Below, piece after piece: positions 5,341 to 24,973 of a stretch of 35,745 nucleotides of DNA. How positions within the stretch are numbered: position 1 is the first letter of the stretch; each line of letters starts with the position of its first letter. The notes beneath the pieces were generated by a model. The model was not told the origin of the DNA and did no database searches. It saw only the letters and a program-made list of their open reading frames with translations. Origin of the DNA: Isosphaeraceae bacterium (GTDB lineage Bacteria; Planctomycetota; Planctomycetia; Isosphaerales; Isosphaeraceae); contig JANXSX010000006.1 of NCBI GenBank assembly GCA_025356475.1, positions 1-35,745 on the forward strand. Reading direction: 5' to 3'. The translations under genes were made by a program, and so were the position numbers.

Positions 5341-5483
5341 AAGGTCAGGATCACGGAAGGCATACTCGAATCCTAACCCGCGCGTCGCGGTCGCGCCAAT
5401 CACTTGGATTCGCCGACGGACAGAACAGGGGCCGACTTACTCTGGCCGGCCATACTCGCGGGTTTTTCATGAGACTTACAGCC

Positions 5484-5759
5484 TCAGAAGTTGTTCGGAT
5501 TGATCACTTCACCGCCGTTACGAGTGGTGAGAGCCTTCATGACCTCACGGTTCACCGAGTTCTTGATAAACCGGACCGATCCATCCGCAAATAAAGCGTT
5601 AAAGCCCCCCGGCCACTTGAGGCCTCCGAACAAAGGCAAGTCGATCACGTAGGCTGCAAGATTCTCGGCAGGGATATACGCAGCGGGCTCGCCGGCCTGA
5701 ACGACCCCAGCGAGCACCAAACAAGTCACGAAAGCGACGCCAAAATGGTCTCGACGCAT
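5484..5759 (-). CDS. Small secreted protein made of a DUF1559 C-terminal tail
   Basis: The 91-aa product has an N-terminal signal peptide (MRRDHFGVAFVTCLVLAGVV, followed by QAGEPA). It then contains only the end of a DUF1559-type protein: FNALFADGSVRFIKNSV followed by ALTTRNGGEV. Normal DUF1559 proteins are about 300-400 aa, with an N-terminal prepilin-like helix and this H-X9-DG-type tail. Here the whole central region is absent. The ATG at 5759 has aaggagt 6 bases upstream, a strong ribosome-binding site, so the short form looks like a real expressed gene rather than random debris. The frame is open further upstream, but that extension does not resemble protein. Role unknown. Confidence 0.7.
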   Translation of the reverse strand: MRRDHFGVAFVTCLVLAGVVQAGEPAAYIPAENLAAYVIDLPLFGGLKWPGGFNALFADGSVRFIKNSVNREVMKALTTRNGGEVINPNNF

Positions 5760-5901
5760 CCGAGTACTCCTTGCCAGCGATACGCAACCCCGAACTCCCT
5801 CACACGAATCGTAGCCGCGAGCCACGACAAAAGTCACGGTATCAAAGTCAGGTTTGCCCGCCAAATGAATTCTTTCGGGTTGAACCTCACGCTTGTCGTA
5901 G

Positions 5902-5931
5902 TTGACAAGAGAAGTGCTGGGGCCATAGCCT
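5902..5931 (+). promoter_or_regulatory. Candidate sigma-70 promoter for rsgA
   Basis: An exact TTGACA (5902-5907) is followed after 18 bases by TAGCCT (5926-5931), a poor -10 match. It ends 23 bases before the rsgA start codon. It is offered only because the -35 is perfect and the position fits. Confidence 0.3.
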
Positions 5932-5954
5932 GAGTTCAGCAGGGGGCGAATCGA

Positions 5955-7150: not shown

Positions 7151-8140
7151 CTAGGTTCCTTCCGAGCGAAAACTTGCTGCCAGTCGCTTGAGCCCTTCTT
7201 CGATCGACACACGGGGCTCATACCCAAGATCTCGCATGGCGGCCGAAAGGTTAAACCAATGCGAGGTCGAGAGTTGTTCAACCATGAACTTAGTCATGGG
7301 TGGCTCGTCCGTCCTTCCAAGCAGACTGTAGATCAATTCCATTGCGGAGGCTGCGGCATAGGCGACCGAGGTCGGTACTGTCTTACGAACTGGTGGGAGG
7401 CCTGCGGCATTGAGGATTCGATTGACCAGAGTCCACACCGCAATCGGCTCGTTATTGGCGATGAAATAGGCTTTACCGGCGATGGGTGACGAATACGCCA
7501 ATCGATCCGCCGCGAGTAGATGGGCATCCGCCGCGTTGTCGATATAGGTCGAATCGATAACATATTCGCGGCTTCCAATCCGTCGCAACCTTCCCGACTT
7601 AGCCTTGGCGATGATTCGCGGCACCAGATGATTATCGCCCGGCCCCCAGATGAGGTGGGGACGGAGAGCCACCGTGGCCAAGCCTGGTCGATTCGCCGCG
7701 AGAATGCGCCGTTCGGCCTCGGCCTTAGTCGCTGGATAGGCGGCTCCGTGATGAGTAGGGTAGGGGGCGGACTCATCGATATTTACCATGTCACCGCCTG
7801 CATGAACCACGCTTGGCGACGAGGTATAGACCAGCCGTTTGACCCCCGCCCGGAGGCATGCATCAATCACATGCTGAGTTCCGTCGACATTGATCCGGTG
7901 GTAGTCGGAATAGGGGCCCCACACGCCCGCCTTGGCCGCGACATGGAACACCACGTCGCAGCCCTCAAACGCTTGGGTGAGGTCATCGTTGAGATCGGCC
8001 TGCACCGTGGTCACCCCTAGGTCTCGCAACCAGGGATAGTCTTGACGCGATAGGCTGCGGACTGATTCACCGCGCTCGACGAGTTGCCTGACAATCGCTC
8101 CCCCCAGGAAGCCCGCCCCACCCGTCACGAGTGCGATCAT
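7151..8140 (-). CDS. oleD: OleD, 2-alkyl-3-oxoalkanoate reductase
   Basis: OleD is an NAD(P)H-dependent short-chain reductase of the extended epimerase type. It reduces the 2-alkyl-3-ketoacid made by OleA to the 2-alkyl-3-hydroxyacid. The 329-aa protein (ATG at 8140) has the nucleotide-binding GGAGFLG at residues 7-13, the catalytic Tyr135-x3-Lys139 (YPATK) and an upstream serine cluster in VYTSSPSVVH. Length and motif spacing are normal. It is the last gene of the seven-gene operon; its ATG overlaps the oleC stop codon as ATGA, so the two are probably translationally coupled. On its own it could be taken for any sugar-nucleotide epimerase, but the order oleA-B-C-D fixes the call. Confidence 0.9.
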   Translation of the reverse strand: MIALVTGGAGFLGGAIVRQLVERGESVRSLSRQDYPWLRDLGVTTVQADLNDDLTQAFEGCDVVFHVAAKAGVWGPYSDYHRINVDGTQHVIDACLRAGVKRLVYTSSPSVVHAGGDMVNIDESAPYPTHHGAAYPATKAEAERRILAANRPGLATVALRPHLIWGPGDNHLVPRIIAKAKSGRLRRIGSREYVIDSTYIDNAADAHLLAADRLAYSSPIAGKAYFIANNEPIAVWTLVNRILNAAGLPPVRKTVPTSVAYAAASAMELIYSLLGRTDEPPMTKFMVEQLSTSHWFNLSAAMRDLGYEPRVSIEEGLKRLAASFRSEGT

Positions 8141-9846
8141 CGCACTTGCCTCGCTGCCCAAATAGCTAGTTTCTCGCGAAAGATCTTCGAGTTGTGCCGG
8201 ATATCGACGGGGAAACTCTTGTGAAATAAGAGTGTGCGAATATCGTTAGTATGATTGAACTTGGCCCCTATCTCCAAGAGTTGCCGCCGGATCGACTCGT
8301 GTTTGGAGATCTCGATTCCGGGCCAAAGCTCGACGCAGAGCACCGGTCTCTGTGCTCCTGGTCTCCCGATTCCGACCAGGGCTGTCCGAAAGACGTCTGG
8401 GTGAGTGTTGAACACACCCTCACATGGTATTGTATACATCGTACCGGAAGACGTGATCACTCGATGTGACTTGCGACCACAAAACCAGATTCGGCCCCGG
8501 GCGTCTCGATAACCGAGGTCTCCCATCCGGTGGAAGGATTTGCCGGTCTGGGGGTCTGCAATCTTGGCCAGTTTGTCAGCGACGTCGCGATGGAAATAGC
8601 TTGATGTGACGACTGCGCCTTGTGCCACAATTTCACCGATCTCACCATCGGGCATGCTCAATGTAGGAGACCAACTCATAATGGCATCATCCGAGATCGT
8701 GATGATCTCGATCCGCATGCCCAGCACTGGCTGACCGACACAGACTCCTTGTCCGGTATCGGTACCGAGGCTCGTCTCAGCCAGAATCTCATCGGAACCG
8801 ATTGAGCACACCGGGAGAGCTTCGGTTGAACCATAAGGGGTGAAGATCTGAACATGAGGTTTGACCAGCGTCTTGAACCGCTTGAGCACTCTGGCCGGCA
8901 CAGGTGCACCTGCGGAAATCACTCTCTTGAGAGATGTGAGCTGAGTCTCACTTTTACTCAGATCCAATCCGACCCGATTGAGCAGAGCCGGTGAGCCGAA
9001 CATATTGGTGACGCCGAAATCCTCGATCGCACTGAGGATTTTCCAAGCATTAACCTGGGCTGGACGGGTCGGGTTCATCTCGGGGATGACCGAGGTCATT
9101 CCGAGTGCAGGCGCGAACAGCGCGAAGAGGGGGAAGGTGCAGAGGTCGATTTCCCCGGGTTCGATATGGTAAAGCGTCCTCAGTTGGCGGACCTGTTCTT
9201 CGAAGATCGCGTGGGAATAAACGACCCCTTTGGGTGGGCCAGTGCTCCCACTCGTAAAGAGGATCGCGGCCGTATCCTCAGCCTCCGTCGCGGCGAGTTG
9301 GGGAGGGCACTCTTCGTGGGCTTCTCCAGCCCCTTGCTGGTTCTCATCTTGCGTGAACCAATCCAAACGGAGTTCATTCAGCGTTATATATCTGGAAGAA
9401 AGACCAATGCCTCCGACTTGCACAACGGTCCGGATCGTCTTCCGGCCCCAACCCAAAATGCGTTGGGCGAGAACGGCCTTGCGAATCCCGATGAACGCTT
9501 CGGGCTCAGCTTCGCGAAGACATGCACCAATGTTCCTGAGACCCATTCCCGGATCGATCAGGATCGGCACAGCCCCAGCTTTAAAGAGGGCGAATGTGAC
9601 CGAAAAAAAGTCGAGACTGGGCTTCACCATCAGAACTGTGCGGACACCTCGACCGATCCCACGTTTCTGGAGGCTAAAGGCGATCCGGTCGCTGTCTCGA
9701 TCCAGTTGGGCAAACGATAAGTGAGTGTGCCGGGTCCGACCCTGACAATCTTGACCCTCGGGTGCGTAAACGGCAATTGCGTCCGGTCGTTCGCGTGCAA
9801 TCTTTGGCAAATGTGAAGCAATGTTGACAAGCTTAGACGTGTTCAT
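8137..9846 (-). CDS. oleC: OleC, ATP-dependent beta-lactone synthetase
   Basis: OleC belongs to the acyl-adenylate-forming superfamily. It activates the 2-alkyl-3-hydroxyacid from OleD with ATP and closes it to a cis-beta-lactone. The 569-aa protein has the P-loop-like ILFTSGSTGPPKG (about 195-207), the adenine-site YGSTEALP, the hinge-region MGDLGYRDARGRIWFCGRKS, and the C-terminal PVDIRHNSKIFREKLAIWAA, which is characteristic of OleC rather than of fatty acyl-CoA ligases. The ATG at 9846 is preferred over a GTG at 9849 because agga lies 6 bases before it. It follows oleB by only a few bases and overlaps oleD by four. OleC is separate from OleB here, not fused as in some actinobacteria. Confidence 0.93.
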   Translation of the reverse strand: MNTSKLVNIASHLPKIARERPDAIAVYAPEGQDCQGRTRHTHLSFAQLDRDSDRIAFSLQKRGIGRGVRTVLMVKPSLDFFSVTFALFKAGAVPILIDPGMGLRNIGACLREAEPEAFIGIRKAVLAQRILGWGRKTIRTVVQVGGIGLSSRYITLNELRLDWFTQDENQQGAGEAHEECPPQLAATEAEDTAAILFTSGSTGPPKGVVYSHAIFEEQVRQLRTLYHIEPGEIDLCTFPLFALFAPALGMTSVIPEMNPTRPAQVNAWKILSAIEDFGVTNMFGSPALLNRVGLDLSKSETQLTSLKRVISAGAPVPARVLKRFKTLVKPHVQIFTPYGSTEALPVCSIGSDEILAETSLGTDTGQGVCVGQPVLGMRIEIITISDDAIMSWSPTLSMPDGEIGEIVAQGAVVTSSYFHRDVADKLAKIADPQTGKSFHRMGDLGYRDARGRIWFCGRKSHRVITSSGTMYTIPCEGVFNTHPDVFRTALVGIGRPGAQRPVLCVELWPGIEISKHESIRRQLLEIGAKFNHTNDIRTLLFHKSFPVDIRHNSKIFREKLAIWAARQVR

Positions 9847-9854
9847 CACAGATC

Positions 9855-10751
9855 CTAACTGATCGCCGACTTCGCCAGAAACCGGACAATCTGCGGAATG
9901 ACCTCCTCCGCCTCATCTTCCAAGATATAATGACCTGACTTCTCAAAACGGTGGACTTCAGCGTCCGGGAAGCGCCTCTCCCACTCGGCCAAGAAGTGCG
10001 CGTCGAAGACCGGGTCCTTCAGCCCCCAAGCGATAAACATCGGTCGATCTTGAAACAAGCTCAGCTTCGACTCAACGTCCGACACCAGGTCGTATGCCCG
10101 ATCTCCCGGCTTGAGCGGGATATCCTGGACGAATCGATGTACAGCAATCCGGTTCGCATAGCTGTTATACGGTTCGGCATAAGCCGACCGCACATCAGCA
10201 GACATAGGATGATGGGTACAACCAAGATTGGCGGTACCGCTGACGAACATGTTCAAACCACGAACAAGCCAACCGCCAACCGCCGATCGACAGACCGTCA
10301 ACTGCCAGGGCATCGGCTTCGATTTGGGGAGCTGGAAGGCCCCTGTGTTCAGTATCACGAGTCGTCGGATTCGTTCGGGGAACCGGGCGGCATAGGCCAT
10401 GCCGATCATGCCACCCCAGTCGTGCAAGACTAGCGTTATCTTGGAATTGATCTGGAGGCGGTCGAGCAGGCGTTCTAAATCATCGACACGCGACTTAAGC
10501 GTATACTCATAACGGGCGTCCGACGGCTTATCCGACCGTCCACAACCGACGTGATCAGGAACGATCACTCGATAGGTCGGGCTCAACGCATTGATCAGGT
10601 TCCGGTAGTAAAACGACCAGGTTGGGTTGCCATGGAGCATCACCACCGGGTCGCCTTGGCCCTCATCAATGTAGTGATAGCGAAGGCTACCGAGGTCGAG
10701 ATCCCGGCCCGGATGTTTGGTGATGAAGTCGGTATAGGCAGCGGCTGTCAT
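9855..10751 (-). CDS. oleB: OleB, beta-lactone decarboxylase (haloalkane dehalogenase fold)
   Basis: OleB is an alpha/beta hydrolase that opens the cis-beta-lactone from OleC and releases CO2, giving a cis-olefin. The 298-aa protein (ATG at 10751) has HGNPTW at 40-45 for the oxyanion region, the nucleophile Asp111 in VLHDWGG (Asp instead of Ser, as in haloalkane dehalogenases), an acid in the GLKDPVFD region, and the catalytic His274 in SGHYILED. The ATG is 8 bases after the oleA stop. A longer frame adds 12 residues but overlaps oleA. Read without its neighbours it would be annotated as a haloalkane dehalogenase; the operon context makes lactone decarboxylation the better call. Confidence 0.92.
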   Translation of the reverse strand: MTAAAYTDFITKHPGRDLDLGSLRYHYIDEGQGDPVVMLHGNPTWSFYYRNLINALSPTYRVIVPDHVGCGRSDKPSDARYEYTLKSRVDDLERLLDRLQINSKITLVLHDWGGMIGMAYAARFPERIRRLVILNTGAFQLPKSKPMPWQLTVCRSAVGGWLVRGLNMFVSGTANLGCTHHPMSADVRSAYAEPYNSYANRIAVHRFVQDIPLKPGDRAYDLVSDVESKLSLFQDRPMFIAWGLKDPVFDAHFLAEWERRFPDAEVHRFEKSGHYILEDEAEEVIPQIVRFLAKSAIS

Positions 10752-10759
10752 AGTCGAAG

Positions 10760-11815
10760 TCACCACTCTACGCCGAGCATCAAACAATTCAGCCCCGAAC
10801 CGATGCCGAGTAAGCCGACCCGATCGCCAGGGTTCAAAAATCCACGTTCTTCCGCGAGTGCCGCCGTCAGCGGGAGCGACACGGTGCCGATATTCCCGAG
10901 ATGAGAGAATGTCGAAAACGTCTTCGCAGCCTCAAGGCCGAGCATCTGCAAGATCGTGTCGCGATGCCCGATCCCCACCTGGTGGCAGATGACCTTATCG
11001 ACATGATCCGAGAGCCAGCCAAGTTTGCGGAGGAACGCAGCCCACGTCCGTGCGCCGAGGTCGACTCCATTCTTGAGCACCGCCACCGAATCCGTCGACA
11101 TATACTGCCCAAACGTGTCGAGTCCCAAACCGAGCGGCTTGATCACCTCAAGACCCCAGCGACAGAGGGCGTGAAACTGCGCCGCGTTCTGGGTCACGCC
11201 CCCCAGGAGCCGCCGGCGATCACTGCCGAATGAGCCGTCGGTGAGCAGCATGGCCACCGCACCCGATCCCCCGGTAAGCGTCGCGAGCGAGGTCTTGAAA
11301 AGTTCCATGCTGCGGTCGCGAAGCATCTTATCGATCATGATGTCGTTGATCTCGCGAGCAGTCTCGCAAGAGACAACAAGGCCTGCGCGAATCTGACCAA
11401 GTTCGATCCGGTTAGCTACGTCGATCATACCGTTCAGAACGCCCAAGCAGGCGTTGCTCAGGTCATAAACTGCGGCGTCGGAACTGATGCCGATCCCAGC
11501 GGCGACCCGGCAGGCGGTCGCGGGCTCGAATAGCTCGCGGCAGACACCGGCGTAGATCAAAACATCGACATCCCGGGGGTTGATGTCGGCCAGGTCGAGT
11601 GCGTGTTTTGCTGCGACCGTCGCACCTTCGGAGAGAGGATATCCCTCGTCCCACCAGCGCCGCTCGGTGATCCCGGTCAAGGCTTCGAGCTGACCCTTGG
11701 GGATGCGCAGAGTCTCGTACAAACCGGTCAATCGCGTTTCGAGTTCCGTCGAGGTCACGACCACGGGCGGGAGTTCGTAACCAATTGCATCGATAAAAAC
11801 TCGCGAATAATTCAT
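10760..11815 (-). CDS. oleA: OleA, head-to-head acyl-condensing thiolase
   Basis: OleA carries out a non-decarboxylative Claisen condensation of two acyl thioesters to a 2-alkyl-3-ketoacid, the first committed step to the olefin. The 351-aa protein has the KAS III/thiolase fold with Cys123 in LSNACLGVLNGM, His278 in VICHQVG, Asn308 in HLGNIGTVSLP, and Glu97 in ELFEPATA, the equivalent of the Glu that acts as base in the Xanthomonas enzyme. Its ATG overlaps the pfaC stop codon (ATGA), so it is translationally coupled to the PUFA synthase. This coupling suggests that it takes polyene acyl chains directly from that synthase, either as acyl-ACP or acyl-CoA; the donor form is an inference. Confidence 0.94.
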   Translation of the reverse strand: MNYSRVFIDAIGYELPPVVVTSTELETRLTGLYETLRIPKGQLEALTGITERRWWDEGYPLSEGATVAAKHALDLADINPRDVDVLIYAGVCRELFEPATACRVAAGIGISSDAAVYDLSNACLGVLNGMIDVANRIELGQIRAGLVVSCETAREINDIMIDKMLRDRSMELFKTSLATLTGGSGAVAMLLTDGSFGSDRRRLLGGVTQNAAQFHALCRWGLEVIKPLGLGLDTFGQYMSTDSVAVLKNGVDLGARTWAAFLRKLGWLSDHVDKVICHQVGIGHRDTILQMLGLEAAKTFSTFSHLGNIGTVSLPLTAALAEERGFLNPGDRVGLLGIGSGLNCLMLGVEW

Positions 11816-14800
11816 CGAGTCTCCGCGTCCAGCCGCAACGTAAAGTCTATCATCTGATACACTTGCCTACCATCGACGCTAAGGATACCGTCGGCCTTGA
11901 TGATCTTACGCTCGTCGTCAATCGCCGTAATCACCGCTTCCGTGGTCATCCACTGCGACGTCGGCAGGACTTGACCACGATAGACCCAGCGGTGCAGATC
12001 GCCGAGCCCCACCGATTCAAAGACGCTGGAGGGAGAGTCCCCCCACCGATCCGAAGCTATTACTTTAAGCGCTTGCTGCAATGATTCCAACCCCAACGAG
12101 CCCGGTACAACGGGGTCCTGATGGAAGTGAGCCTTGAAGAACCAAGCCGATGGGTCGACTCGCTTTGTGGCACGAAGGTAGCCAAAACCAGCGGGGCCGC
12201 CATCTGGGAGGTAGGCGTCGACTCTGTCGAGCATCCGCAAAGTGTCGTCTGGGAAAGGAAAACGGGTTGGGAATTCGAACGACTTGGCTAGGGAAAGCTC
12301 CCCCTCCGTGGGGCGAGCGAAGTTGACGTCCCGCAAGCCAACCTGGTCGGAGAGCGCCGCCTTGCTGAAGAATCCGAAGTACGTGTCCCCTTCATAGACC
12401 ACGCCCACTCGGTCGCGAACCTGGAAATCGTAATTCTGGATGATCATGCCCGCCGAGTGCGACACCTTGGTGATCTTGATCCGGGTGGTCAAGGTCCCCG
12501 ACTGCGAGTCGATCAGGCGGAATTGGGTCGCCGAGCCTCCCAAATTTCGGAACGAGAGGTCAATTTCACTGTTGAGTGCCGAACCCAGGTACGCAGCCAA
12601 CCAACCGCAGGGCTGAAGTGCGACCTCAAGCAAGATCCCGAAAGTCATTCTCGGTTGGCGGTCAGCCGTAAAGTACCATGCATCCGGGGGGACGTCGTAC
12701 TCCGCCTCGATCACCCCCCCCGTGACCATCTTCCAGGGGGCACAATCGATCTTGGTGATCCGGTCCAAAAACTGATACGGAGGGCCGGGTAGGCGAGCAA
12801 TTATCCGATCATGATCGAAGATCTTATAAGGATCTCCGAACGCATCGGACGGATTCCCAATTGCGAAAGCGGTGATCCTGTCGGTGTCGAAGAGGGGCTT
12901 ACTGGCGAGATTCGGCTGATCGGCCCAGAGCTGGCGAATGCGTTCGCGAGTCAGCCCGGTCATTCGCAGTGACATCTCACTGATTTCCACAATCGGTTTA
13001 CCATCCGCGAGCATGAGCGCGTCGCAGATCACGTAAGGCTCGGGCCGGTAGCCGATCTCCTTGATGGTGACCTCGTAGGTAACGACCCGGGTCGATTCGA
13101 TCACCTGCCCACGACACTTTAGCCGGCTGGCCACACCGGGAACGGGCTCGCAGACGGCCTCAGAAGATTCGCCAACCCAGCCCATTCGGGTCAAGAAGAT
13201 CCGAAGCGTATGTAAGCAACACTCATACATAAGTGTGCCTGGCATCACTCGGTCATCGACGAAGTGGCATGTCATGAACCAGGCGGAAGGATCAATATCG
13301 GCTTCTGCACGAATGAATCCCAGGCCGAATTTGCCCCCGTCGGGCTCGATCCGAGTGACCCGATCGACAAGTGTCATCAGCCCACCCGGTAGTCTCATCG
13401 GATGGACGATCTGCAAATTCGCAAATGAGTGGCCAAAGGCGGCGACCAGATTCCCCTCGCGAAGTGCCGCTATCTGTGCGTTGTTGAGAGCTTCGATCCT
13501 CATCGGCACGAATGTCTCACGCTCCGCAGGCCGAACCTTCGACCCCTCGCGAGCCACTGCCGGGGTGACGATTCCTTGGCCGGCGGCCAGCGCTGTCTCT
13601 GTAAAAAAGCCCGCGCAGCCGTCACTCATCGTTAAGAGAGGTTCACCATTCACCGTTCCTTCAAACCGGAATCGGAACAGATGGGCATCACCTTGTTGGA
13701 AGAAATGATCAATATGAATGTCGTAGTGGATCGTGTCGCCTGGTCCCGGCAGGCTTCGGTGGAAGGTTACGACAGCATCGAGCAATCGATAGACCGCCAA
13801 TCCTTTGGTGAGGAAGTCAATTCCGAGATAACCTGACAGAAAGAGGTCAGCCTGGCCAGACTCGACAGCAATGCAGGTGGGAATCCGACCGTTATCCAGA
13901 TACCAGCGATTTTCGTCAATGTCGTGTTCGGTAACAACCCGGCCACTTGTCATGGAACGGGCTTCGCCTTCAATACGCATGATGCGATCGACGAGCATCA
14001 AGGGTTCGTCCGGCAAGCGAACTCGCGTTGGGTAGGTGTCGATTAATGCGAACTCTGGGCCGAGGACCTTGGCAATCGATCCCACGGCGAATTCCAGACA
14101 GGCCAGGCGGTCGAGCTGAAGCTGAGGTCGAACGACCGCCGTAGGCTCGACCTGGCCGATGGCGACGCCAGCAAGGGCCTCGATCAGCTTCATCTGATAG
14201 GAAATCTGGTCGGACATCGACGTAGAAAAGTCGGCGGAGAGTTTGAGGTAGGCCTGATGGGCGTCCCCAACTGCTGTCGATGTCGACATCCACTGAGTTG
14301 AGATGCGATCAAGTGCTGGCATAGGAGTCTTTGAGGGCGGGCTCGGGAGTGGTAACGGAGTAGGATCTCTTTGAGCGACCGGTCTCGGCACGACAGGGGC
14401 TTCAACTCGCGTGGAAATCGTCTGTCGGGCGACGGGGATCGGAGGAATGACGAAGGGATCTCCTCCGACGGGTATTCTGACCATGCGTGCCGCGGTCGTC
14501 GTTGGAATGATTGCACTGGGCGACGAAAGTTTTGAGATATCGACATGTACGCGTTCTGAGATTAGTCGCCCCAACAGGCTCAATAGCCCCGCGACTGGCT
14601 CACCTTCGGCGGGCGTGGCACTCGCGGCTAGATGAGGACGCCCCGAAAGGATCGTGCTAATGATCCGGCTACACGAAGTTCCCGGTCCGATCTCCACAAA
14701 ATGGCGGACGCCATCAAGGTACGCCTGCTCGATCACTCTTGAAAAGTCGAAGCCGTGCAGAGCATGGTTGACGATCGATTCCGCAGCCGATTCTCTGGTT

Positions 14801-17800
14801 AACTCGAAGGAATTTTCAGAGAATCCGCCATAGAATCGCACATTCTTGGGAGGTGTTGTGTTCAAAAGGTGAAGATCACGATACTCGTGCGCGACCTCAC
14901 CGACGATTGGACAATGGACTGTTGAGACAATGGACAGAGGGATGAAGGCGACGCCCAAACGCGTGAGAATATGTTGAATTGCAGGTCGCTGTCCACCGAT
15001 GACCGTTTCTTCGGCGGAGTTCACGATAAGTCGATAAGCTCGCTCGATGCCTGAGAGCGCTCGATCGACCGATAAGGAAGAAGCGGGGACAATACCGGCG
15101 ACCCAGTCCACCGGCTCATCCAGCCCGAGTTTCCAGAATCGACGTGCCGCGTTGCACGGACCGGCAAGGTCGGTTGCGAACAAGCTTGAAGCGTCAAGGC
15201 GTTGGAGCATCACGTCGCGTTCAGTCCAGGCCTGAAGCGCGAAAAGGGCGGCAGTCTCACCCAAGCTATAGCCGATGGCGGCATTGGGTTCCACGCCCAA
15301 TATGCGGACAAGATCACTCACGAACGTGCCGAACGCGACCTGCCCGAGGATCGCTGCGCGATGATCCGGGAACGATGTCGGCAGGTCGCAATTCCACCAG
15401 GTTCCAGGCGCAAGTTGACTTTTGAGATGAAGATTCGATTGTTCTTGCTGGAGCAGGACCTCGGGCCAGTGCGCGGACAGTGCCCGGCCCATCCCAGCGA
15501 ATCCAGCGCCCGAGCCGGGGAACACGAACGCCACTTCTGCAGGCCCGATCGGTGTCGGATTGAAGAAGACCCGTTCGCTAGTTCGGTCGCGATGCCCCCC
15601 GGGGTCGCGAAGCCGCTTGCGAGCCTCAGCAAGTCGCCGATCCATTGGGACAGCGACTTCGGCGACGATCGACACAGCAAGCCTGGCGTCGGGCCGACGC
15701 GGGTGCAAAAGATCCCAGCGGGCCGCGAGTTGAACGATGGAGATCTCACGATCGAGCCCAACCAGTGTCTCAAGCTGATCAAGCCCCTGTTGGATTCCCT
15801 GCTCGTCATCGGCTTCGATCACGAGCAGAGACGCGGGGGGCTCACCCAACGCCGGTGGCCCATTGATCTCGAGTTTCGCTCGCACGGGCGATTCCGAGAG
15901 TCGAACTCGCATCGCGTTTTCGTCGAGCCCGTGAATGTCGACATGAGCACGCCTCGGCCCCTCCGACCGGTTGTGCAGCCAAAACTGGGTGTCGAGCGTT
16001 CCACCCACCCCGGGAGGTAGCAGGCAGGAGTCTAGGGCGAGGACCGCTCGACTGAGTGCAAGTAGCCCCGAGGCCGCTCCACCATAACCGACAAGGTCGT
16101 CAACAGGTGCAAAGCTGAGCGATTGATCTTGGCTGAGATCACACGCAAGTGCTGAAGTGTTATCGTCAACGGCTTCAATCACTGCAAGAATGTGGTTGTC
16201 ATCGTTCTGAGCATCGACAAGCCGCTTGAGCACGAGTGTGACGGAAGCGTCGGCACCGGCGATGGGAAGTCCCAACTTCGCACGAGCGAGCGTCAGTCGC
16301 GGGTCATTCGCCAGGTCGACGGCCCCCACGATCGCGTCATCGATCTCGCCTTGTGCAAGCATCTGGCTAGCGATTTTGAGAGCCTTTAGCCCCGATGTCT
16401 CATCCGCAGAAACGGTAAAGCTTGGCCCACCGATCCGGAACTCGCGTGCAAGTCGACTGGCGACGATCCCCCCCAATGCCCCCATCGTTCGATCGGCTGT
16501 CAGTGCGGGACCTGTCGCCTCACGAATTTCGTCGGCCCACTCGGCTACCTGCGCTGGATCGAGTCCCAGGTTCAGCTTTAGATTCCAGTCAGTGACCGAA
16601 TCACCCAGAGACCAGCGAACATGAAAGTTGGTGCTGTTGAGGTCGAGCCCGATTCCCACGAAAACGCCGGTCCGGAGCCTCGGTTCTGAACCAGTCCAGC
16701 CGGCCTGTTCGATCGCCGCTGAGGCTGTCTCCAGCATTAATGCCTGTTGGGGAAGCATCGTTTCAAGTTCCTTGGGGGGAATTCGAAACTGTCCTGCGGG
16801 GAGGTCGACCTCCAACAAGGGTGAGCCTAATGGATGCGTCGATGTTGCGCCGAATGTTGAAGGATCGACCCCCCACCAGCGAGAACCTCGGTCGTCGGCG
16901 TCGCGAGTTTGTCCCGACAGGAGCCGGGCACGAACTTCGTCACGTGTTGCGTCTGCCCCGAGGTGTGCTCCCAACCCGACGATTGCAATCTGACAGTGTG
17001 TGCGATTGGGTAGGGTCTCAGAACTTAAAGCAGGAAGATATTCTTCAATGATGGCATGAGCGTTAATACCACCGAACCCGAATCCACTAATGGCCGCCTT
17101 ACGTGGGCTCCCGTCCTCAGGCTGGGGCCAGGACTCAGCTTTGGTTAGGACTCGAAATGGCGTGCCAGCCTCCGCTAAGGCTTGGGCAGGTTTGAGGAAG
17201 TTAGCAGTCGGGGGGAACGTGTGATGCCGGATCGCCAGCAGGACCTTGAGGAGGCCAGCCGCATTTGCTGCGGTAAGAGCGTGGCCAATATTGGATTTAA
17301 CCGATCCGAGCACGCACCTTTTCGAGGTCTCCTCGTCCCAGAGTGCGTGAAGACTAGCAAGCTCGACGGCGTCGCCCACGGGGGTCCCGGTTGCGTGACA
17401 TTCGATCAGATCGATCTCATTGGGTCGCCAATTTGTCTGATTGTAGGCAGCCCGCATCGCCCTGAGTTGCCCTTCGGAGCTAGGGGCAAGCAAGTTGCCT
17501 TGAACATCATTGGAGAGACTGATCCCAGCGATAACGCCGTGGATTGTGTCGTGGTCGCGGACCGCGTCACTCAGCCGCTTAAGGATGAACATTCCTGCAC
17601 CTTCGCCCACGACCAACCCATCGGCATCTGCAGACAAGGGTGAGGCTTTGCCGCGTGGGGAGAGGGCGCGGAGTTGGGAGAATCCCATCTGTGTGTAGAG
17701 CGGGTCGGGACGAGAGAGTCCCCCTGTGATCATCGCGTCGGCTCGACCGGACAGAAGTTCGTCGGCGGCGAGCTTGAGAGCGTACAGGGACGAGGCGCAG

Positions 17801-18366
17801 GCGGCATCGAGCGTAAAAGTTCCCCCACCCAGGCCTAGGTCTAGGGCGATCAGGTGGGCGGGAAGCCCAGCGGGCAAGGCATTCCAGGGCTCGAATGGAG
17901 CTTGCGAATGAGGTGTTAACCCCAGCTTCGCCTCGAAGGCACCACCGAGAACCGACCGGGCGATTGCGGAGGCCGTCTCGGTTGGCAAGATCAAATGACC
18001 GATGATCACACCTACACGCGTGCAATCGATGTTGGACGTCTGGGCGGACTCCCAAGCCTGGCGGGCAGCGTGCATTCCCAGGAGATATGCAGGGTCGAGT
18101 CGCTTGAGCAGATCTGGATCGACATGATGTCGGTTGGGGTCGATCTGAAAATTGGTGACGAATCCCCCTCGGGTCGCATAAACCTTGTCGGGTTGACCGA
18201 TACGTGGGTCGAAGGCGGATTCGGGCGTGAGACTCCAGCGGCCCTCGGGGACCTGGGTCGTGGAATCGATACCGGCTGCGATGTTTGACCAGAATTGATC
18301 AAGGTCTCGCGCTCCCGGGAAAATCCCACCGAGCCCGACGATCGCTACGCGTTCGGTCGATGCCAT
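11812..18366 (-). CDS. pfaC: PfaC-type PUFA synthase subunit, KS-CLF-AT-DH-DH
   Basis: A 2184-aa multidomain subunit of a PUFA synthase. The KS (about 5-445) has Cys190 in DAACASS, His324 in ECHATGTP and His362 in KSNIGHA. The second KS-like domain (about 455-760) is a chain-length factor: the active Cys is replaced by Glu656 in SADETSG. The AT (about 940-1240) has Ser1034 in GYSLGE and ends with HFVEIGPG. A Pro-rich linker leads to four hot-dog repeats (about 1445-2180), two FabA-like dehydratase/isomerase pairs, with catalytic His in CHFVDDRVMPG and AHFHQDPVVPG. The embedded AT makes this resemble myxobacterial Pfa3 more than marine PfaC, but the C-terminal glycerophosphate acyltransferase of Pfa3 is absent. 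ATG at 18366 preferred; an in-frame TTG at 18426 would overlap pfaA. Confidence 0.92.
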   Translation of the reverse strand: MASTERVAIVGLGGIFPGARDLDQFWSNIAAGIDSTTQVPEGRWSLTPESAFDPRIGQPDKVYATRGGFVTNFQIDPNRHHVDPDLLKRLDPAYLLGMHAARQAWESAQTSNIDCTRVGVIIGHLILPTETASAIARSVLGGAFEAKLGLTPHSQAPFEPWNALPAGLPAHLIALDLGLGGGTFTLDAACASSLYALKLAADELLSGRADAMITGGLSRPDPLYTQMGFSQLRALSPRGKASPLSADADGLVVGEGAGMFILKRLSDAVRDHDTIHGVIAGISLSNDVQGNLLAPSSEGQLRAMRAAYNQTNWRPNEIDLIECHATGTPVGDAVELASLHALWDEETSKRCVLGSVKSNIGHALTAANAAGLLKVLLAIRHHTFPPTANFLKPAQALAEAGTPFRVLTKAESWPQPEDGSPRKAAISGFGFGGINAHAIIEEYLPALSSETLPNRTHCQIAIVGLGAHLGADATRDEVRARLLSGQTRDADDRGSRWWGVDPSTFGATSTHPLGSPLLEVDLPAGQFRIPPKELETMLPQQALMLETASAAIEQAGWTGSEPRLRTGVFVGIGLDLNSTNFHVRWSLGDSVTDWNLKLNLGLDPAQVAEWADEIREATGPALTADRTMGALGGIVASRLAREFRIGGPSFTVSADETSGLKALKIASQMLAQGEIDDAIVGAVDLANDPRLTLARAKLGLPIAGADASVTLVLKRLVDAQNDDNHILAVIEAVDDNTSALACDLSQDQSLSFAPVDDLVGYGGAASGLLALSRAVLALDSCLLPPGVGGTLDTQFWLHNRSEGPRRAHVDIHGLDENAMRVRLSESPVRAKLEINGPPALGEPPASLLVIEADDEQGIQQGLDQLETLVGLDREISIVQLAARWDLLHPRRPDARLAVSIVAEVAVPMDRRLAEARKRLRDPGGHRDRTSERVFFNPTPIGPAEVAFVFPGSGAGFAGMGRALSAHWPEVLLQQEQSNLHLKSQLAPGTWWNCDLPTSFPDHRAAILGQVAFGTFVSDLVRILGVEPNAAIGYSLGETAALFALQAWTERDVMLQRLDASSLFATDLAGPCNAARRFWKLGLDEPVDWVAGIVPASSLSVDRALSGIERAYRLIVNSAEETVIGGQRPAIQHILTRLGVAFIPLSIVSTVHCPIVGEVAHEYRDLHLLNTTPPKNVRFYGGFSENSFELTRESAAESIVNHALHGFDFSRVIEQAYLDGVRHFVEIGPGTSCSRIISTILSGRPHLAASATPAEGEPVAGLLSLLGRLISERVHVDISKLSSPSAIIPTTTAARMVRIPVGGDPFVIPPIPVARQTISTRVEAPVVPRPVAQRDPTPLPLPSPPSKTPMPALDRISTQWMSTSTAVGDAHQAYLKLSADFSTSMSDQISYQMKLIEALAGVAIGQVEPTAVVRPQLQLDRLACLEFAVGSIAKVLGPEFALIDTYPTRVRLPDEPLMLVDRIMRIEGEARSMTSGRVVTEHDIDENRWYLDNGRIPTCIAVESGQADLFLSGYLGIDFLTKGLAVYRLLDAVVTFHRSLPGPGDTIHYDIHIDHFFQQGDAHLFRFRFEGTVNGEPLLTMSDGCAGFFTETALAAGQGIVTPAVAREGSKVRPAERETFVPMRIEALNNAQIAALREGNLVAAFGHSFANLQIVHPMRLPGGLMTLVDRVTRIEPDGGKFGLGFIRAEADIDPSAWFMTCHFVDDRVMPGTLMYECCLHTLRIFLTRMGWVGESSEAVCEPVPGVASRLKCRGQVIESTRVVTYEVTIKEIGYRPEPYVICDALMLADGKPIVEISEMSLRMTGLTRERIRQLWADQPNLASKPLFDTDRITAFAIGNPSDAFGDPYKIFDHDRIIARLPGPPYQFLDRITKIDCAPWKMVTGGVIEAEYDVPPDAWYFTADRQPRMTFGILLEVALQPCGWLAAYLGSALNSEIDLSFRNLGGSATQFRLIDSQSGTLTTRIKITKVSHSAGMIIQNYDFQVRDRVGVVYEGDTYFGFFSKAALSDQVGLRDVNFARPTEGELSLAKSFEFPTRFPFPDDTLRMLDRVDAYLPDGGPAGFGYLRATKRVDPSAWFFKAHFHQDPVVPGSLGLESLQQALKVIASDRWGDSPSSVFESVGLGDLHRWVYRGQVLPTSQWMTTEAVITAIDDERKIIKADGILSVDGRQVYQMIDFTLRLDAETR

Positions 18367-18412
18367 CCTGAGTCTCGTGCGGGGATTGTTGCGACCACGA
18401 ACCGTGCTGGTC

Positions 18413-21400
18413 TCAGTGGGCGTCAAACTGGGCAGTGCGGTTGCGGCGGAATGCCTGGTTCAGCGATTGATCAATCACGCATTGATAATCATCGATTCGT
18501 GCGATCAATGCACCTGTCGTCGTGTTGAGGAATTCAATGTCGGCCACGGCTCGATGAGCCCCCGACTCGGTGACACGGGCGACGATGCGAACGCCATCGG
18601 TGGGGAAGCTCCGCTCGAATTGCCGGTACCGACCGATGATCGTGGGAAGTGAGCCTGCCCCGAAGCGTTCCACGCTCCAGAGGATAAGCAACTGGAAGGC
18701 TCCGTCGATCACCAGGGGGTCGGTCAACCAGCTCTGACGTAAGGGTTTGTCGATCCAGGTCGAAGGTGCAGGGGCCGACGAAACCCTGGCGACGATACCA
18801 TTCTCGCCACATCCCTCGATCGCTCGGATGCACTGGAGGGCAGGGCCATGAAACAACACGTCGCGGTAGACTTCACGAGGGCTGAGGGCATAAGTCGGCA
18901 AGGTCAGATCGTCGAGAGCAGGAACTTCGGACGGGTAAGCATCCGTCAACACAACTTCTGCCCGAGCATGCAGCACGTCTCGCCCGTCTGCAAGTTTCCC
19001 GCGAAGTTCGACCGGAACGACGGAGACATCGTCTTTGCGGATCGCCTTGCCAGCGACCACACGGACCGTCTCGGCAGCCCCTTCGCGAACAATCACACCT
19101 TTCAGTAGCTTTAACTCATCAATACCAACGCATACCAACCCAGGATGCTTATGGAGCGCTCCTTGAGCGAGCCATTCGAGGATCAGGGCGAGCGGAAGCA
19201 CGGGGCGACCGTCGATCACATGCGAATGCAATACAGGCATCGTTACGAGATCAAGCGTCCGTTCGAATACGGTCGAATAACTCGTAGTGATATGACCATT
19301 CGTTGGGGCTGATTTGGGACCAGGCTCGGCAGGCTGTGTCGGCTCAAGGATTTTCGCAGTGGGGACGATCGAGCCAGCGCCGAGGACAACGACCTCGACT
19401 GCGGCGTTGGGTATCTCGTGGAGTGACTCGACAAGGAACCGTGCGCCCGAGGAGAGGGGGATGAGTTGGATCCCTTCGGCCAGGAAGTGAGGCTTGAGTG
19501 CGACGGTCACCATCCCACCGTTCCAGGGGCCCCAGTTGGCCGCAAGGACCCGGCAGTTTGGCCGACGCCTGGCCTCGGCTTGGGCCAGCTTATTCATCAC
19601 TTCGTTTGCGGCGGAATACGCCACCTGGCCCGTACGACCGAATCGCGCGGTCGACGATGAGAAAACAACGAACGCTTTCAAGTCATCATCTTGAGTTGCG
19701 CTCACAAGTGCCCGGAGTCCGTGTACCTTTGTTTCATAGACCTTGAGGAATTGTTCATCCGTTTGATCAACGATCGATCGATCTGCGAGCACCCCAGCGC
19801 CATGAACGAGCCCACGGATCGGCCCGAACTCAGCGCGAATCTGGCTGAGAACATTGGCGACCGCATTGGAGTCACGGACGTCGACCGATCGGTAGATTGC
19901 CTTCGCACCGAGAGCCTCAATGGCGTGGAGTGTGGTCACAACCTCGCGATCGGCAGCAATTCGCCGGAATTCGTCCCCGACCGCTTGAAGCGTCGTATGC
20001 CCGTTACCTCGACTGATCAACTCGCGTTTGATCTCCGATTCCTTGCTGAGTTGGGTCAGCCAAACGGGCTCTTTTTGAGGCAAGGAACTCCGACCGAGCA
20101 GGACCAACGTCGGCTGGAACGCTTGAGCAAGGGCGATCGCCACAGCGGCCGTCACCCCTCTCGCACCGCCACTCACGACCATCACGTCCCCACGTTTGAT
20201 ACTGGACGAGCCGAGTTCGCGAACCTGCGGCCTTAACTCGATCCCAAAAAGACCAGATTGGCGAATTCCCACCTCGACCGGGCCAGTTGAGCCAAGGATC
20301 GCAAGGATCAGGTCCGCAGCTCGAGATGGCTCGATATTGATATCAAGATCAATCACCTTACTCGTCACTTCGGGCCACTCACAGGCGGCCGTCTTAGCAA
20401 GCCCTGCGAAGCCTCCCGAGAGAGGGTCAGTGAGAGTGGTGGCGGATCCCCCGAAGCCAAACCCACCGTCGAGATGTTCGACCAGAGCGAGAATCCCTTG
20501 AGCCTTGCGCAGACCAGGGGCGGCGGCACGTACAAAGCGAAACGCATCGAGAATCGAGTGGTCCTGAGTGCCACCCGATGGCGGAAGGATCAAGAGGCCG
20601 GCCAAATGCTCGGGACAGTGAAGTTCGCCGCTATCCTTGAGATTGAACTGTCTGAGATGAACACTAGAGGATTCTAGATTCGAGGACAGGTTCGATGCCA
20701 ATAAGGATTCGTCACCGATCAGCCAGAACTCACCGCTCTTGAGCTTGTCGGCGAGTCGTTGGTTCAGGACCAACGGCGACAGTGTTGGTACAAGGCTCAA
20801 GACATCGGCTTCGACCTGTTCGGGCTGGACGACGGGGGTCGTGGACGGGACCGGCGGAGCGGTTTCCGTCGTTCCCCCGTTCAGAAAGTCTGCGATCTGG
20901 CCCAAGGTTCGGATCGTGCCGAGATGCTCTGGACCTAGCACAGGGGCGTGGGGCAGGCGTTCTTGAACCGCTGCGAGGATCTCGACGCGCTTGATCGAAT
21001 CGATCCCGAGATCAGCGTCGAGCTGCATTGTCGGTTCGAGAACTTCGATCGGATACCCCGTCTTGTCGGCAACCACTTCCATCAACACAGAGGTGATCGA
21101 GTCATTTGGAGGGGATTGAGAGGCGACAGCAACAGGCGGGAGATCAGCCCCCAAGAACTCCGCAATCTGGCCGAGGGTTCGGATCGTACCCAGGTGCTCA
21201 GGCCCGAGGAGAGGCGCCTTGGGCAGCCGTTCTTGGACCGCAGCCAGGATTTCAACCCGTTTGATGGAGTCGATACCAAGGTCGGCGTCGAGCTGCATTG
21301 AGGGTTCGAGAACATCGACCGGGTAGCCGGTCTTATCGGCAACCACTTCCATCAAGATACGTCGGACGTGGTCATGATCGGTCGCGACCGGCTGTCCAGC

Positions 21401-24400
21401 GGGATGTTGAGTTGAGCCCGCGCTCAGGAACTCGGCAATCTGACCAAGCGTCCGGATCGTGCCGAGGTGCTCGGGTCCAAGAAGCGGAGCGTTTGGCAAT
21501 TTCTCCTGGACAGCCGCGAGGATCTCGACCCGTTTGATGGAGTCGATGCCAAGATCGGCGTCGAGCTGCATCGAGAGTTCGAGAACCTCACTGGGATATC
21601 CGGTCTTATCGGCAACAACAGATCTCAACACTTCTTCAACTTGTGAGATGCTTACGTCAGTAAGTGCCGGTGCCGGTGCCGGTGCCGGCAGTTGACGTTG
21701 GGGAGCGATCGGGGTCGGTCGGGGGATGACCGGGGCGGGCGTCCTGGCCACGACCGGTTCTGGGTGAGCGACTGGCTGTACGTATGCAGGTCGGGTTTCG
21801 ATCGCAGCGGGCAGGGTTGGCATCGAAATGCCAAGTCCGAGACTTGAGAGTGTTAGCGTCTGTTGATGTTGGAGCAGCGATTGGAAACTGCGCTGGGCAA
21901 TATCTTGCCCTTCGAGGAACTGACGATGGAGCGACGCCGTTTGCTCAGCGACTTTTTGAAGAGCGACGAGGTTCTCTTGCGCGGTCCTGAGTGCATCGGC
22001 GACGAAGCTAGACGAGGCCGGCGCGACCCGGGGTGGCGACGACGGCGGAATCGCAACCGGGGTGGTGGATGGGCTTGTCACGACTCGGGGCGGAGGCTGA
22101 GGGGCAGTCATGGTGGGGCCGGCGACAGGGGGGCGAGGCGTAAAGGGCTGAGGCGCGGGGGTCGGATGAGCCCCCGAGACCGGCACGGTGAGGGAAGGCT
22201 TGCGGGCTGGAGCGGGCGTGGAGGCGAAGGGGTGATCCCAGGCGGTGAGTCGCACCGAATGCCCAAGGGCGGAGAGGTGACCGAGAGTCCGCGCGAGATC
22301 AACTAGGCCAGGGCGGGTCCCTCGTGAGGCGTCCAGGGCAAGGGCGGTGTGCTCTTGGCCTGCCAGAATCGCACTCACCATCCCCGTCAATTTGCTATCG
22401 GGACCGACTTCCAGGAAGGTTGTCGAGCCGGCGAGCGACATCGCCTCAACCTGGCGGACGAACTCGACAGGCGAAGCAAGTTGGTTCGCAAACAAGTGCT
22501 TCGTATCCGCACTTGAATCAGGATATGTTGTGGCAGTTGTGTTGGAGTAAACAGGAATTCGCCCATGGGCCATGTCCACATGAGCAAGTTCCTGCAAGAG
22601 TGGCCCCGCAGCGTCCGCCACAAGTTCGCTGTGAAATGCAGCCGACACCGCAAGCTTGCGAGTCTTCATGCCCAACTGTTGCAGGACCTGGTCCGCTCGT
22701 TCGATTGCTGACTTCACGCCAGACAAGACAACCTGAGCAGGTGTGTTCACATTCGCGAGGGTGACATCCAATTGGTGCGATGCGATCGCAGCCTTGACCT
22801 CGGCGATCGGTGCGAGCACGGCGAGCATCGCGCCTCGATCGCCCGACTGTTCCGCCATGAGCCGACCTCGGACCCTCGCAACTCGATGAAACTCAGGAGG
22901 AGTGAGTCGACCGGCGGCACACAGGGCGGTCAGTTCACCAAAACTATGGCCACCGACCATGACGGGCACGACGCCAAACGAGTGGAGAACTCCGAGCATG
23001 CTCAGGCTGACCGCCCCGAGTGCCGGCTGAGTTGCGTCCGTGGCACGGAGCGCGAGTTCTTGATCAGCCTTAGCCTCGGCGGTGTATGCCGAGGTAGGAT
23101 AGATCAAGTTGTTCAGGGATATGGAGTGGATCGGCCCCAACGCATTGGCATCAGTGACCGACTGCATCGCTTGAGGGAAGAAACAGGTGAGGTCACGTCC
23201 CATCCCTACATATTGCGATCCCTGTCCAGGGAAGAGGAATGCCAATTGGCCGCGAGCTGGGCCGCACCCGTAATAGATCCCATCAGGGTGGCTTGCAAAC
23301 GGCTTGCCCTTGGTGGAGTCGATCAATGTGATCGCACGCTCAACCAGTTTCGCAATGTCGGAGACCCCCCGATCGACAACCAGGATGAGACGCTCGGCGT
23401 CCTCAACCCGAAAGCTTGCCCGAGATTCGGCGGCAACTCGGCGGAACTCCGACTCTTTGAGAGCCGTCGTGAGAGGCTTGAGCTTGAGCTTGAGCTTTAA
23501 TCCCTGCGAATTTGAGGCGGAGAAGGCCAGGATCTGGGTTGCGCCGTCCCAGGGCGCTTCGGGGAGCGTCGCATCGACTTCTTCCAGAACACAGTGGAAA
23601 TTACTGCCCCCAAATCCAAAAGCGCTCACTGCTGCCCGACGCGGATGGTCAGCGCTGGGCATCCAAGGGCGACTCTCGACGTTCACATAAAACGGAGAGC
23701 TCGGCTCGGCAAGGATCTCGGTTGGGGTCGTGATTTTTGCAGTCGGTGGGATCACTTTATAATGGAGTGCCAATGCCGCTTTGATCAGCCCGGCGACTCC
23801 GGCGGCGGCCTTGGTGTGGCCGATTTGCGACTTGACCGAGCCGACCGCACACCACTTGTCCGACCGACCGGTCGAGCGGTAGACCTGATCGAGCGCCTTG
23901 AGTTCGGTGGCGTCCCCGACTTTGGTCCCGGTCCCGTGGGCTTCGACCATTTCGATCGTGGCCGGCGAGACATCGGCAATTGCATAGGCTTGCCGGAGCG
24001 CTTTGGCCTGACCAGCGGCCACCGGGGCGTAAACGGCTTGTCCTTTGCCGTCGCTGGAGGAGCCAACTCCTTTGATGACCGCGTAAATTTTGTCGCCGTC
24101 ACGACGGGCGTCATCGAGCCGCTTGAGGGCCAGAATTCCCAGGCCTTCCCCGAGGATCGTGCCATCACCACTTGCGTCAAAGGGACGCGCATCACCTGTG
24201 GGTGAAAGTGCAGGTGTTTTACTGAAGCACATGTACATGAAAATGTCGTTAAACGTATCTAGCCCACCGGTCAGCACCATATCGGAGCGACCGGTGGCGA
24301 GTTCGAGGAGGGCCAGGTGGAGGGCTCCTAGCGAGCTGGCGCAGGCGGCGTCGATCACGCAGTTGGTGCCGCCCAGGTCCAATCGGTTGGCGATGCGTCC

Positions 24401-24973
24401 AGCGGCGACGTTGCCGAGTAGACCCGGGAACGAATTCTCCTGCCAACCGACATAGCTATTAGCAATCCGATCGACAACTTCGTCGGCAATTGGGCCAGTG
24501 ATCCCCGACGCGGTGAGAGCCCGCCTCCAGATGGGATGGCCCAGTCGAGCCCCCAGCGGGATCACCAATTCCAGGGTTCCCGTCACACCCAAGATGACGC
24601 TGACCCGGTCCCGATCGAACTCGCGCGAACCACCGTAGCCCGCGTCATCGAGCGCGGCCTTGGCGACCATTAGGCCGAGCAGTTGAGTTGTGTCGGTGGC
24701 ATCGATATTTGCAGGGGCGATGCCGTAATCAAGCGCTGGGAAATCGACGGGGCTGAGGAAGCCCCCCCGGCGTGCATATGTATGGTCGGGGCTCTTGGGA
24801 TCGGCGTCGTAATAGTCTTCGACCCGCCAGTGGGTTGCCGGAACCTCGGTTATCGCATCAACACCATTGCGGATGTTGGACCAGTACGTGGCGAGATCGC
24901 CCGCCTTGGGGAACAGGCAGCCAATGCCGATGATCGCTACCGGTACCGAGGGGGTCTTATCGGCCGAATTCAA
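18413..24973 (-). CDS. pfaA: PfaA-type PUFA synthase subunit, KS-AT-ACP3-KR-DH
   Basis: A 2186-aa iterative synthase subunit. The KS (about 8-465) has Cys211 in DAACASS, His346 in EAHGTGT and His386 in KSQIGHTK. The malonyl AT (about 575-880) starts at FPGQGSQ and has Ser677 in GGHSFGE. A Pro/Ala-rich linker (about 930-1105) leads to three tandem ACPs, each with LGIDSIKR; the phosphopantetheine serines are Ser1145, Ser1236 and Ser1326. The KR (about 1590-1850) has VVSGGARG and a catalytic Tyr near 1786 in AYSAANE. A polyketide-type DH with HVIDGRPVLP (about 1917) ends the protein. This is the standard PfaA order with fewer ACPs than the five or six of marine gammaproteobacteria. The start is TTG at 24973 with aaggaa upstream; no ATG fits. 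Confidence 0.95.
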   Translation of the reverse strand: MNSADKTPSVPVAIIGIGCLFPKAGDLATYWSNIRNGVDAITEVPATHWRVEDYYDADPKSPDHTYARRGGFLSPVDFPALDYGIAPANIDATDTTQLLGLMVAKAALDDAGYGGSREFDRDRVSVILGVTGTLELVIPLGARLGHPIWRRALTASGITGPIADEVVDRIANSYVGWQENSFPGLLGNVAAGRIANRLDLGGTNCVIDAACASSLGALHLALLELATGRSDMVLTGGLDTFNDIFMYMCFSKTPALSPTGDARPFDASGDGTILGEGLGILALKRLDDARRDGDKIYAVIKGVGSSSDGKGQAVYAPVAAGQAKALRQAYAIADVSPATIEMVEAHGTGTKVGDATELKALDQVYRSTGRSDKWCAVGSVKSQIGHTKAAAGVAGLIKAALALHYKVIPPTAKITTPTEILAEPSSPFYVNVESRPWMPSADHPRRAAVSAFGFGGSNFHCVLEEVDATLPEAPWDGATQILAFSASNSQGLKLKLKLKPLTTALKESEFRRVAAESRASFRVEDAERLILVVDRGVSDIAKLVERAITLIDSTKGKPFASHPDGIYYGCGPARGQLAFLFPGQGSQYVGMGRDLTCFFPQAMQSVTDANALGPIHSISLNNLIYPTSAYTAEAKADQELALRATDATQPALGAVSLSMLGVLHSFGVVPVMVGGHSFGELTALCAAGRLTPPEFHRVARVRGRLMAEQSGDRGAMLAVLAPIAEVKAAIASHQLDVTLANVNTPAQVVLSGVKSAIERADQVLQQLGMKTRKLAVSAAFHSELVADAAGPLLQELAHVDMAHGRIPVYSNTTATTYPDSSADTKHLFANQLASPVEFVRQVEAMSLAGSTTFLEVGPDSKLTGMVSAILAGQEHTALALDASRGTRPGLVDLARTLGHLSALGHSVRLTAWDHPFASTPAPARKPSLTVPVSGAHPTPAPQPFTPRPPVAGPTMTAPQPPPRVVTSPSTTPVAIPPSSPPRVAPASSSFVADALRTAQENLVALQKVAEQTASLHRQFLEGQDIAQRSFQSLLQHQQTLTLSSLGLGISMPTLPAAIETRPAYVQPVAHPEPVVARTPAPVIPRPTPIAPQRQLPAPAPAPALTDVSISQVEEVLRSVVADKTGYPSEVLELSMQLDADLGIDSIKRVEILAAVQEKLPNAPLLGPEHLGTIRTLGQIAEFLSAGSTQHPAGQPVATDHDHVRRILMEVVADKTGYPVDVLEPSMQLDADLGIDSIKRVEILAAVQERLPKAPLLGPEHLGTIRTLGQIAEFLGADLPPVAVASQSPPNDSITSVLMEVVADKTGYPIEVLEPTMQLDADLGIDSIKRVEILAAVQERLPHAPVLGPEHLGTIRTLGQIADFLNGGTTETAPPVPSTTPVVQPEQVEADVLSLVPTLSPLVLNQRLADKLKSGEFWLIGDESLLASNLSSNLESSSVHLRQFNLKDSGELHCPEHLAGLLILPPSGGTQDHSILDAFRFVRAAAPGLRKAQGILALVEHLDGGFGFGGSATTLTDPLSGGFAGLAKTAACEWPEVTSKVIDLDINIEPSRAADLILAILGSTGPVEVGIRQSGLFGIELRPQVRELGSSSIKRGDVMVVSGGARGVTAAVAIALAQAFQPTLVLLGRSSLPQKEPVWLTQLSKESEIKRELISRGNGHTTLQAVGDEFRRIAADREVVTTLHAIEALGAKAIYRSVDVRDSNAVANVLSQIRAEFGPIRGLVHGAGVLADRSIVDQTDEQFLKVYETKVHGLRALVSATQDDDLKAFVVFSSSTARFGRTGQVAYSAANEVMNKLAQAEARRRPNCRVLAANWGPWNGGMVTVALKPHFLAEGIQLIPLSSGARFLVESLHEIPNAAVEVVVLGAGSIVPTAKILEPTQPAEPGPKSAPTNGHITTSYSTVFERTLDLVTMPVLHSHVIDGRPVLPLALILEWLAQGALHKHPGLVCVGIDELKLLKGVIVREGAAETVRVVAGKAIRKDDVSVVPVELRGKLADGRDVLHARAEVVLTDAYPSEVPALDDLTLPTYALSPREVYRDVLFHGPALQCIRAIEGCGENGIVARVSSAPAPSTWIDKPLRQSWLTDPLVIDGAFQLLILWSVERFGAGSLPTIIGRYRQFERSFPTDGVRIVARVTESGAHRAVADIEFLNTTTGALIARIDDYQCVIDQSLNQAFRRNRTAQFDAH
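20867..21646 (-). repeat. Three tandem acyl carrier protein repeats within pfaA
   Basis: Three units of about 270 bases (approximately 21646-21410, 21373-21137 and 21103-20867) encode near-identical ACP domains with serines 91 and 90 residues apart. Strings such as gtcggcgtcgagctgcat recur almost unchanged in more than one unit. This indicates recent duplication or continuing gene conversion. The linkers between units are short and more variable. Confidence 0.9.

Follow-up and report, generated by a model that had tools for sequence, protein, structure and literature searches.

The question raised by this locus is how a finished polyunsaturated chain leaves a Pfa synthase whose last protein ends at a hot-dog domain and is followed at once by oleA. 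An earlier note assigned no visible release domain to this protein, its internal acyltransferase (AT) notwithstanding, and proposed that OleA had taken the place of the lipid acyltransferase (AGPAT) that ends myxobacterial Pfa3. The window, that is, the whole stretch of 35,745 nucleotides from an Isosphaeraceae bacterium, was analysed together with relatives of the locus in other genomes.

Organisation and distribution of the pfa-ole operon

The gene order is pfaD-pfaA-pfaBC-oleA-oleB-oleC-oleD, with pfaD and pfaA upstream of pfaBC and oleB, oleC and oleD at the downstream end. The features are as follows.

25049..26644 (-): pfaD, enoyl reductase (NMO/FabD_helical_ins)
18413..24973 (-): pfaA, KS-MAT(GHSFGE)-ACPx3-KR-DH
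11812..18426 (-): pfaBC, a PfaB/PfaC fusion (the PfaC of the earlier note); TTG start at 18426, alternative ATG start at 18366
17017..18354 (-): KS domain of pfaBC, residues 25-470; C210, H344 and H382 invariant among relatives
16057..17001 (-): CLF domain of pfaBC, residues ~476-790; Ser at the active-site Cys position
14527..15561 (-): apparent PfaB-type acyltransferase (terminal or off-loading AT) of pfaBC, residues 956-1300
15265-15267 and 14914-14916 (-): predicted AT catalytic residues of pfaBC, Ser1054 and His1171, respectively
12952..14106 (-): DH2 of pfaBC, first FabA-like double hot-dog, residues 1441-1825; active-site His1721
11827..12876 (-): DH3 of pfaBC, second FabA-like double hot-dog, residues 1851-2200; active-site His2100
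10760..11815 (-): oleA, non-decarboxylative condensing enzyme; Glu97, Cys123, His278 and Asn308 conserved; ATGA overlap with pfaBC
9855..10787 (-): oleB, alpha/beta hydrolase, a beta-lactone decarboxylase by position and family
8137..9849 (-): oleC, AMP-binding, olefin beta-lactone synthetase family
7151..8161 (-): oleD, 2-alkyl-3-oxoalkanoate reductase family

Profile searches bear out the domain order KS-CLF-AT-DH-DH given by the earlier note for PfaBC, which is 2204 aa long. The ATG at 18366 from which that note read the protein exists, and the full open reading frame is 11812-18426(-). The chain does stop after the last hot-dog, which ends four residues before the C-terminus. A hidden AGPAT or thioesterase at this end was considered and rejected: the C-terminal domain search gave no AGPAT (PF01553) and no thioesterase in Pfam, NCBIfam was equally negative, and BLAST with the AGPAT of a relative was empty for PfaBC and for its Type I relatives. 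No pfaE (PPTase) was found within the window; two PPTase-family matches lie elsewhere in the genome, on other contigs. The flanking open reading frames (49-1545, 3006-5363, 5484-6332 and 34058-34981) have no Pfam matches and no visible link to the operon, and that at 5484-6332 has an H-X9-DG motif at its end.

A search of planctomycete genomes and a named genome collection yielded 140 loci; once near-copies and unlike proteins had been dropped, 121 Type I (pfaBC-fusion) proteins remained. The pfaBC stop overlaps the oleA start as ATGA (11812-11815), and this coupling, pointed out in the earlier note, is real rather than a chance juxtaposition: oleA lies at most 330 bp downstream and on the same strand in 85 of the 106 dereplicated loci with enough sequence to judge, and the same 4-bp overlap recurs in 24 relatives. 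All ten tested genomes in which pfaBC is unlinked to OleA hold an OleA elsewhere; nine of these are close to the linked OleAs (57-73% identity) and the tenth is distant (40%). One locus with a Type I pfaBC (L162, genome G647) belongs to a genome that shows only the distant kind of OleA (40% identity). No PfaBC-OleA protein fusions were seen, and C-terminal extensions of Type I proteins reach at most 21 residues. Type I pfa-ole operons in this survey span Planctomycetota, desulfuromonads, Acidobacteriota, Gemmatimonadota, Elusimicrobiota, gammaproteobacteria and others.

The acyltransferase domain inside PfaBC

The internal AT is apparently a long-chain acyltransferase of the PfaB type whose active site is intact, as judged from sequence comparison and a structure model. 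Its score with the generic acyltransferase model of Pfam is 27.2 bits, under the cut-off of 32.7, and for this reason the domain can look weak. TIGR02816 (pfaB_fam) matches it at 7e-20 with 71.2 bits, under the 144.3 cut-off of a model that covers the whole KS'-AT protein and of which PfaBC matches only positions 164-529 of 534. The closest solved relative by sequence is PfaB of Shewanella baltica (9ry8, 4e-26). The same structure is the best match of the AlphaFold model of the domain (pLDDT 93.5, built from 56 sequences) in a structure search of PDB chains, with Z 42.3 over 356 residues; the runner-up has Z 33.5. The active site comprises a GYSLG motif with Ser1054 and His1171, together with Tyr1053 and its partner Asn1136. 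The malonate-binding Arg is absent, Ala standing at that position, in contrast to PfaA of this operon, whose AT has the malonyl-type GHSFG(E).

These residues are strongly conserved among the 121 dereplicated relatives: Ser1054 in 120, His1171 in 121, Tyr1053 in 113 and Asn1136 in 119. The CLF Cys position, which serves as a built-in control, is replaced in most of the same 121 proteins. A vestigial AT was rejected on account of this residue conservation and of the structure model. In other PUFA synthases PfaB is reported to be the terminal acyltransferase for long chains and to determine the product; an off-loading role has been proposed for it, and hydrolysis has been seen with homologs under some conditions. 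Because the AT of PfaBC is of this type, with its Ser-His dyad intact, it is incorrect to say that the protein shows no release domain, and the reading of KS-CLF-AT-DH-DH proteins of this kind as devoid of one needs correction. The earlier note had itself named an acyltransferase domain in PfaC as a finding that would speak against its reading; the PfaB-type AT is such a domain.

The sole pfaBC of the set without the AT serine is that of L087 (7322-14404), a protein on a long branch in which the motif reads GLPLGE, with Ser replaced by Pro. Its oleA lies 3 kb downstream, with unrelated open reading frames between, and among those listed in this interval no compensating acyltransferase or thioesterase gene is apparent. 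Since this locus lacks the AT serine yet keeps oleA 3 kb away, loss of the AT may be tolerated, or the AT dispensable, in some lineages.

OleA and the route of the polyene chain

The OleA of the window matches the structures of X. campestris OleA at E 4e-58 and has the catalytic Cys, His and Asn as well as the second-subunit Glu. These four residues are conserved across 86 linked OleAs, with one exception at the Asn. In a tree, a 99% branch splits the OleAs of pfa-bearing genomes from those of Xanthomonas and of planctomycetes without pfa genes, a separation that is consistent with partner specificity but no proof of it. A loop at residues ~228-243 of the window OleA (gene 10760-11815) varies widely in length among pfa-linked OleAs, from 16 to 73 residues, compared with 10 in X. 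campestris. As a marker of Pfa linkage this loop was rejected: it is not diagnostic, most unlinked planctomycete OleAs having a longer loop too.

Earlier in vitro work on OleA used acyl-CoA as substrate (discussed in PMC6463001). When oleA and pfaABCDE were expressed together in E. coli without fadD, a 31:8 ketone was obtained, from which the authors concluded that OleA uses acyl-ACP in vivo, with competition for ACPs (Allemann 2019, PMC6463001). By analogy, ACP-bound chains may be the substrate here as well. A role of OleA as the sink of the Pfa pathway is plausible and not new. Thus the off-loading function that the earlier note assigned to OleA holds in one respect, as consumption of Pfa-made polyenoyl-ACP is supported by the literature and was already known, and fails in the other, as a stand-in for a missing release domain.

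We consider it likely that this is a Type I operon making a long polyunsaturated olefin such as C31:9, in which the AT transfers the chain and OleA joins two, working beside an intact AT. By homology, PfaA, PfaBC and PfaD would build a polyenoyl chain on the three ACPs of PfaA. The AT of PfaBC would probably set the product length and transacylate the finished chain off the elongating ACP, a role suggested by the biochemistry of PfaB, from which both the direction and the acceptor of the reaction are taken by analogy. OleA, probably translationally coupled, would then join two polyenoyl thioesters head to head, in all likelihood while they are still attached to ACP, as has been reported for Shewanella, after which OleD, OleC and OleB would complete the olefin. 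OleA would thus be the pathway sink, not a replacement for a release function. C31:9 as the product in this organism is proposed by analogy, on the strength of Geobacter and Shewanella; no report of C31:9 in planctomycetes was found in the literature searched.

A more specific and only tentative idea is that the PfaB-type AT of Type I proteins is a dedicated hand-off domain that accepts the completed polyene from the ACPs of PfaA and passes it to OleA or to CoA. If true, this would explain an intact AT next to OleA while AGPAT-bearing relatives are often without AT. The survey turns any dependence of OleA on the conserved PfaB-type AT for its supply of chains into a question that can be tested.

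The acceptor could also be CoA. PfaB moves palmitoyl from CoA to ACP in vitro, the off-loading direction being only proposed, and a reversal of this measured reaction would let the AT pass the chain from ACP to CoA and OleA condense two polyenoyl-CoA molecules. The earlier description of OleA with acyl-CoA and the conservation of the AT where OleA is a neighbour are in keeping with this scheme, which is nevertheless doubtful, given that the work of Allemann 2019 (PMC6463001) argues for acyl-ACP, though in a system with a separate PfaB.

It is unlikely that the AT acts as a thioesterase, freeing a polyunsaturated fatty acid from which a separate ligase makes the acyl-CoA for OleA. In the Thraustochytrium synthase an AT-like domain does hydrolyse acyl-CoA, and the host genome holds other AMP-binding ligases. 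However, the present AT conserves the Tyr and Asn to which the suppression of hydrolysis in PfaB has been attributed, the operon has no ligase apart from OleC, the route costs ATP, and the 31:8 ketone was formed in E. coli without FadD.

The likely reading, an OleA working beside an intact AT, differs from one in which PfaBC is devoid of a working release domain and the off-loading of two polyenoyl-ACP chains falls to OleA alone, as successor to the AGPAT present in an ancestor resembling myxobacterial Pfa3. The missing AGPAT, the ATGA coupling and the use of Pfa acyl-ACP by OleA in E. coli without fadD are all compatible with such a history, but the near-invariant Ser and His of the AT and its PfaB fold speak against it, and so does the distribution of AGPAT. 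Two planctomycetes (L069, L070) have AGPAT-bearing proteins, as do genomes of the phylum around L164, a Myxococcus-labelled MAG. A quick tree built on KS and DH columns has a 100% branch with the Type I proteins, including those of Geobacteraceae/Desulfuromonadales, on one side and the AGPAT proteins, with a second Pfa-like protein of the host, on the other. In a PfaA-rooted KS tree, also a quick tree and with one faulty outgroup row (L164_PfaA, branch length 10), Type I forms a sister lineage and does not arise from within the AGPAT proteins. The PfaC of M. marina has a long branch, and the exact placement of gamma PfaC is unsure. The AT is undetectable in five of the seven AGPAT-bearing proteins that cover the region, and Sorangium pfa3 lacks it according to a published remark, whereas OleA-linked proteins keep it; therefore absence of the AT goes with AGPAT and not with OleA. 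An AGPAT-to-OleA replacement was thus rejected, the OleA-linked proteins being nested among AGPAT-bearers in neither tree: replacement of the lipid acyltransferase by OleA is not supported by the sequence comparisons, and off-loading by OleA alone seems very unlikely.

Two further proteins were observed in the course of this comparison. The host's own genome (L072, contig C63:36366-56365) has a second Pfa-like pair, whose PfaC-like protein lacks AGPAT, has the AT motif SVSSGE, is followed by a separate 389-aa gene resembling DH4 of AGPAT-type proteins, and groups with the AGPAT lineage. In the AGPAT protein of L070 (genome G081) the open reading frame runs into a dispersed repeat, as its C-terminal ~45 residues have matches at more than 100 other sites of that genome.

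Finally, a synthase making a stand-alone polyunsaturated lipid, with the ole genes as mere neighbours using other acyl chains, was given as possible by Shulse & Allen 2011 (PMC3098273) and is highly improbable here in view of the adjacency of OleA (85/106 loci), its presence in all ten unlinked genomes tested and the lack of an AGPAT domain.

Relation to known systems

The pfaBC-fusion Type I cluster was defined by Shulse & Allen 2011 (PMC3098273), who proposed that it feeds the Ole pathway and reported it from Geobacter, Desulfuromonas and the planctomycete Gemmata obscuriglobus. The locus in the window is a cluster of this already described kind, and its arrangement is ordinary: the AT lies in PfaC between CLF and DH, pfaD and pfaA are upstream, and the protein groups with pfaBC of Geobacter and Desulfuromonas. 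With the Type I secondary lipid synthase it shares pfaD, pfaA and a fused pfaBC followed by tandem oleABCD, and the absence of AGPAT. Geobacter bemidjiensis, which makes a C31:9 polyene (PMC4882568), has a tandem pfaDABC-oleABCD-pfaE, whereas the window is without pfaE.

The order KS-CLF-(AT)-DH-DH is shared with Type L myxobacterial Pfa3 (Aetherobacter, Minicystis). Unlike PfaBC, in which Pfam finds no C-terminal AGPAT (PF01553), Type L Pfa3 has AGPAT at its end, and some have an extra DH4. With the Shewanella Pfa-Ole pathway to C31:9 (PMC6463001) the locus has in common a Pfa synthase feeding OleA, the OleABCD set and the OleA catalytic Cys123; there, however, PfaB stands as a protein of its own and EPA is a further product, whereas here the AT is fused inside PfaC. 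The AT itself shares with PfaB (Lofeudo 2026, PMC12895367; PDB 9ry8) the fold, the GYSxG motif, the Ser-His dyad and the lack of the malonate Arg. It lies between CLF and DH, whereas the AT of PfaB lies behind a KS' pseudo-domain, and at the position of the Tyr partner Gln is replaced by Asn, as in DHA-type PfaB.
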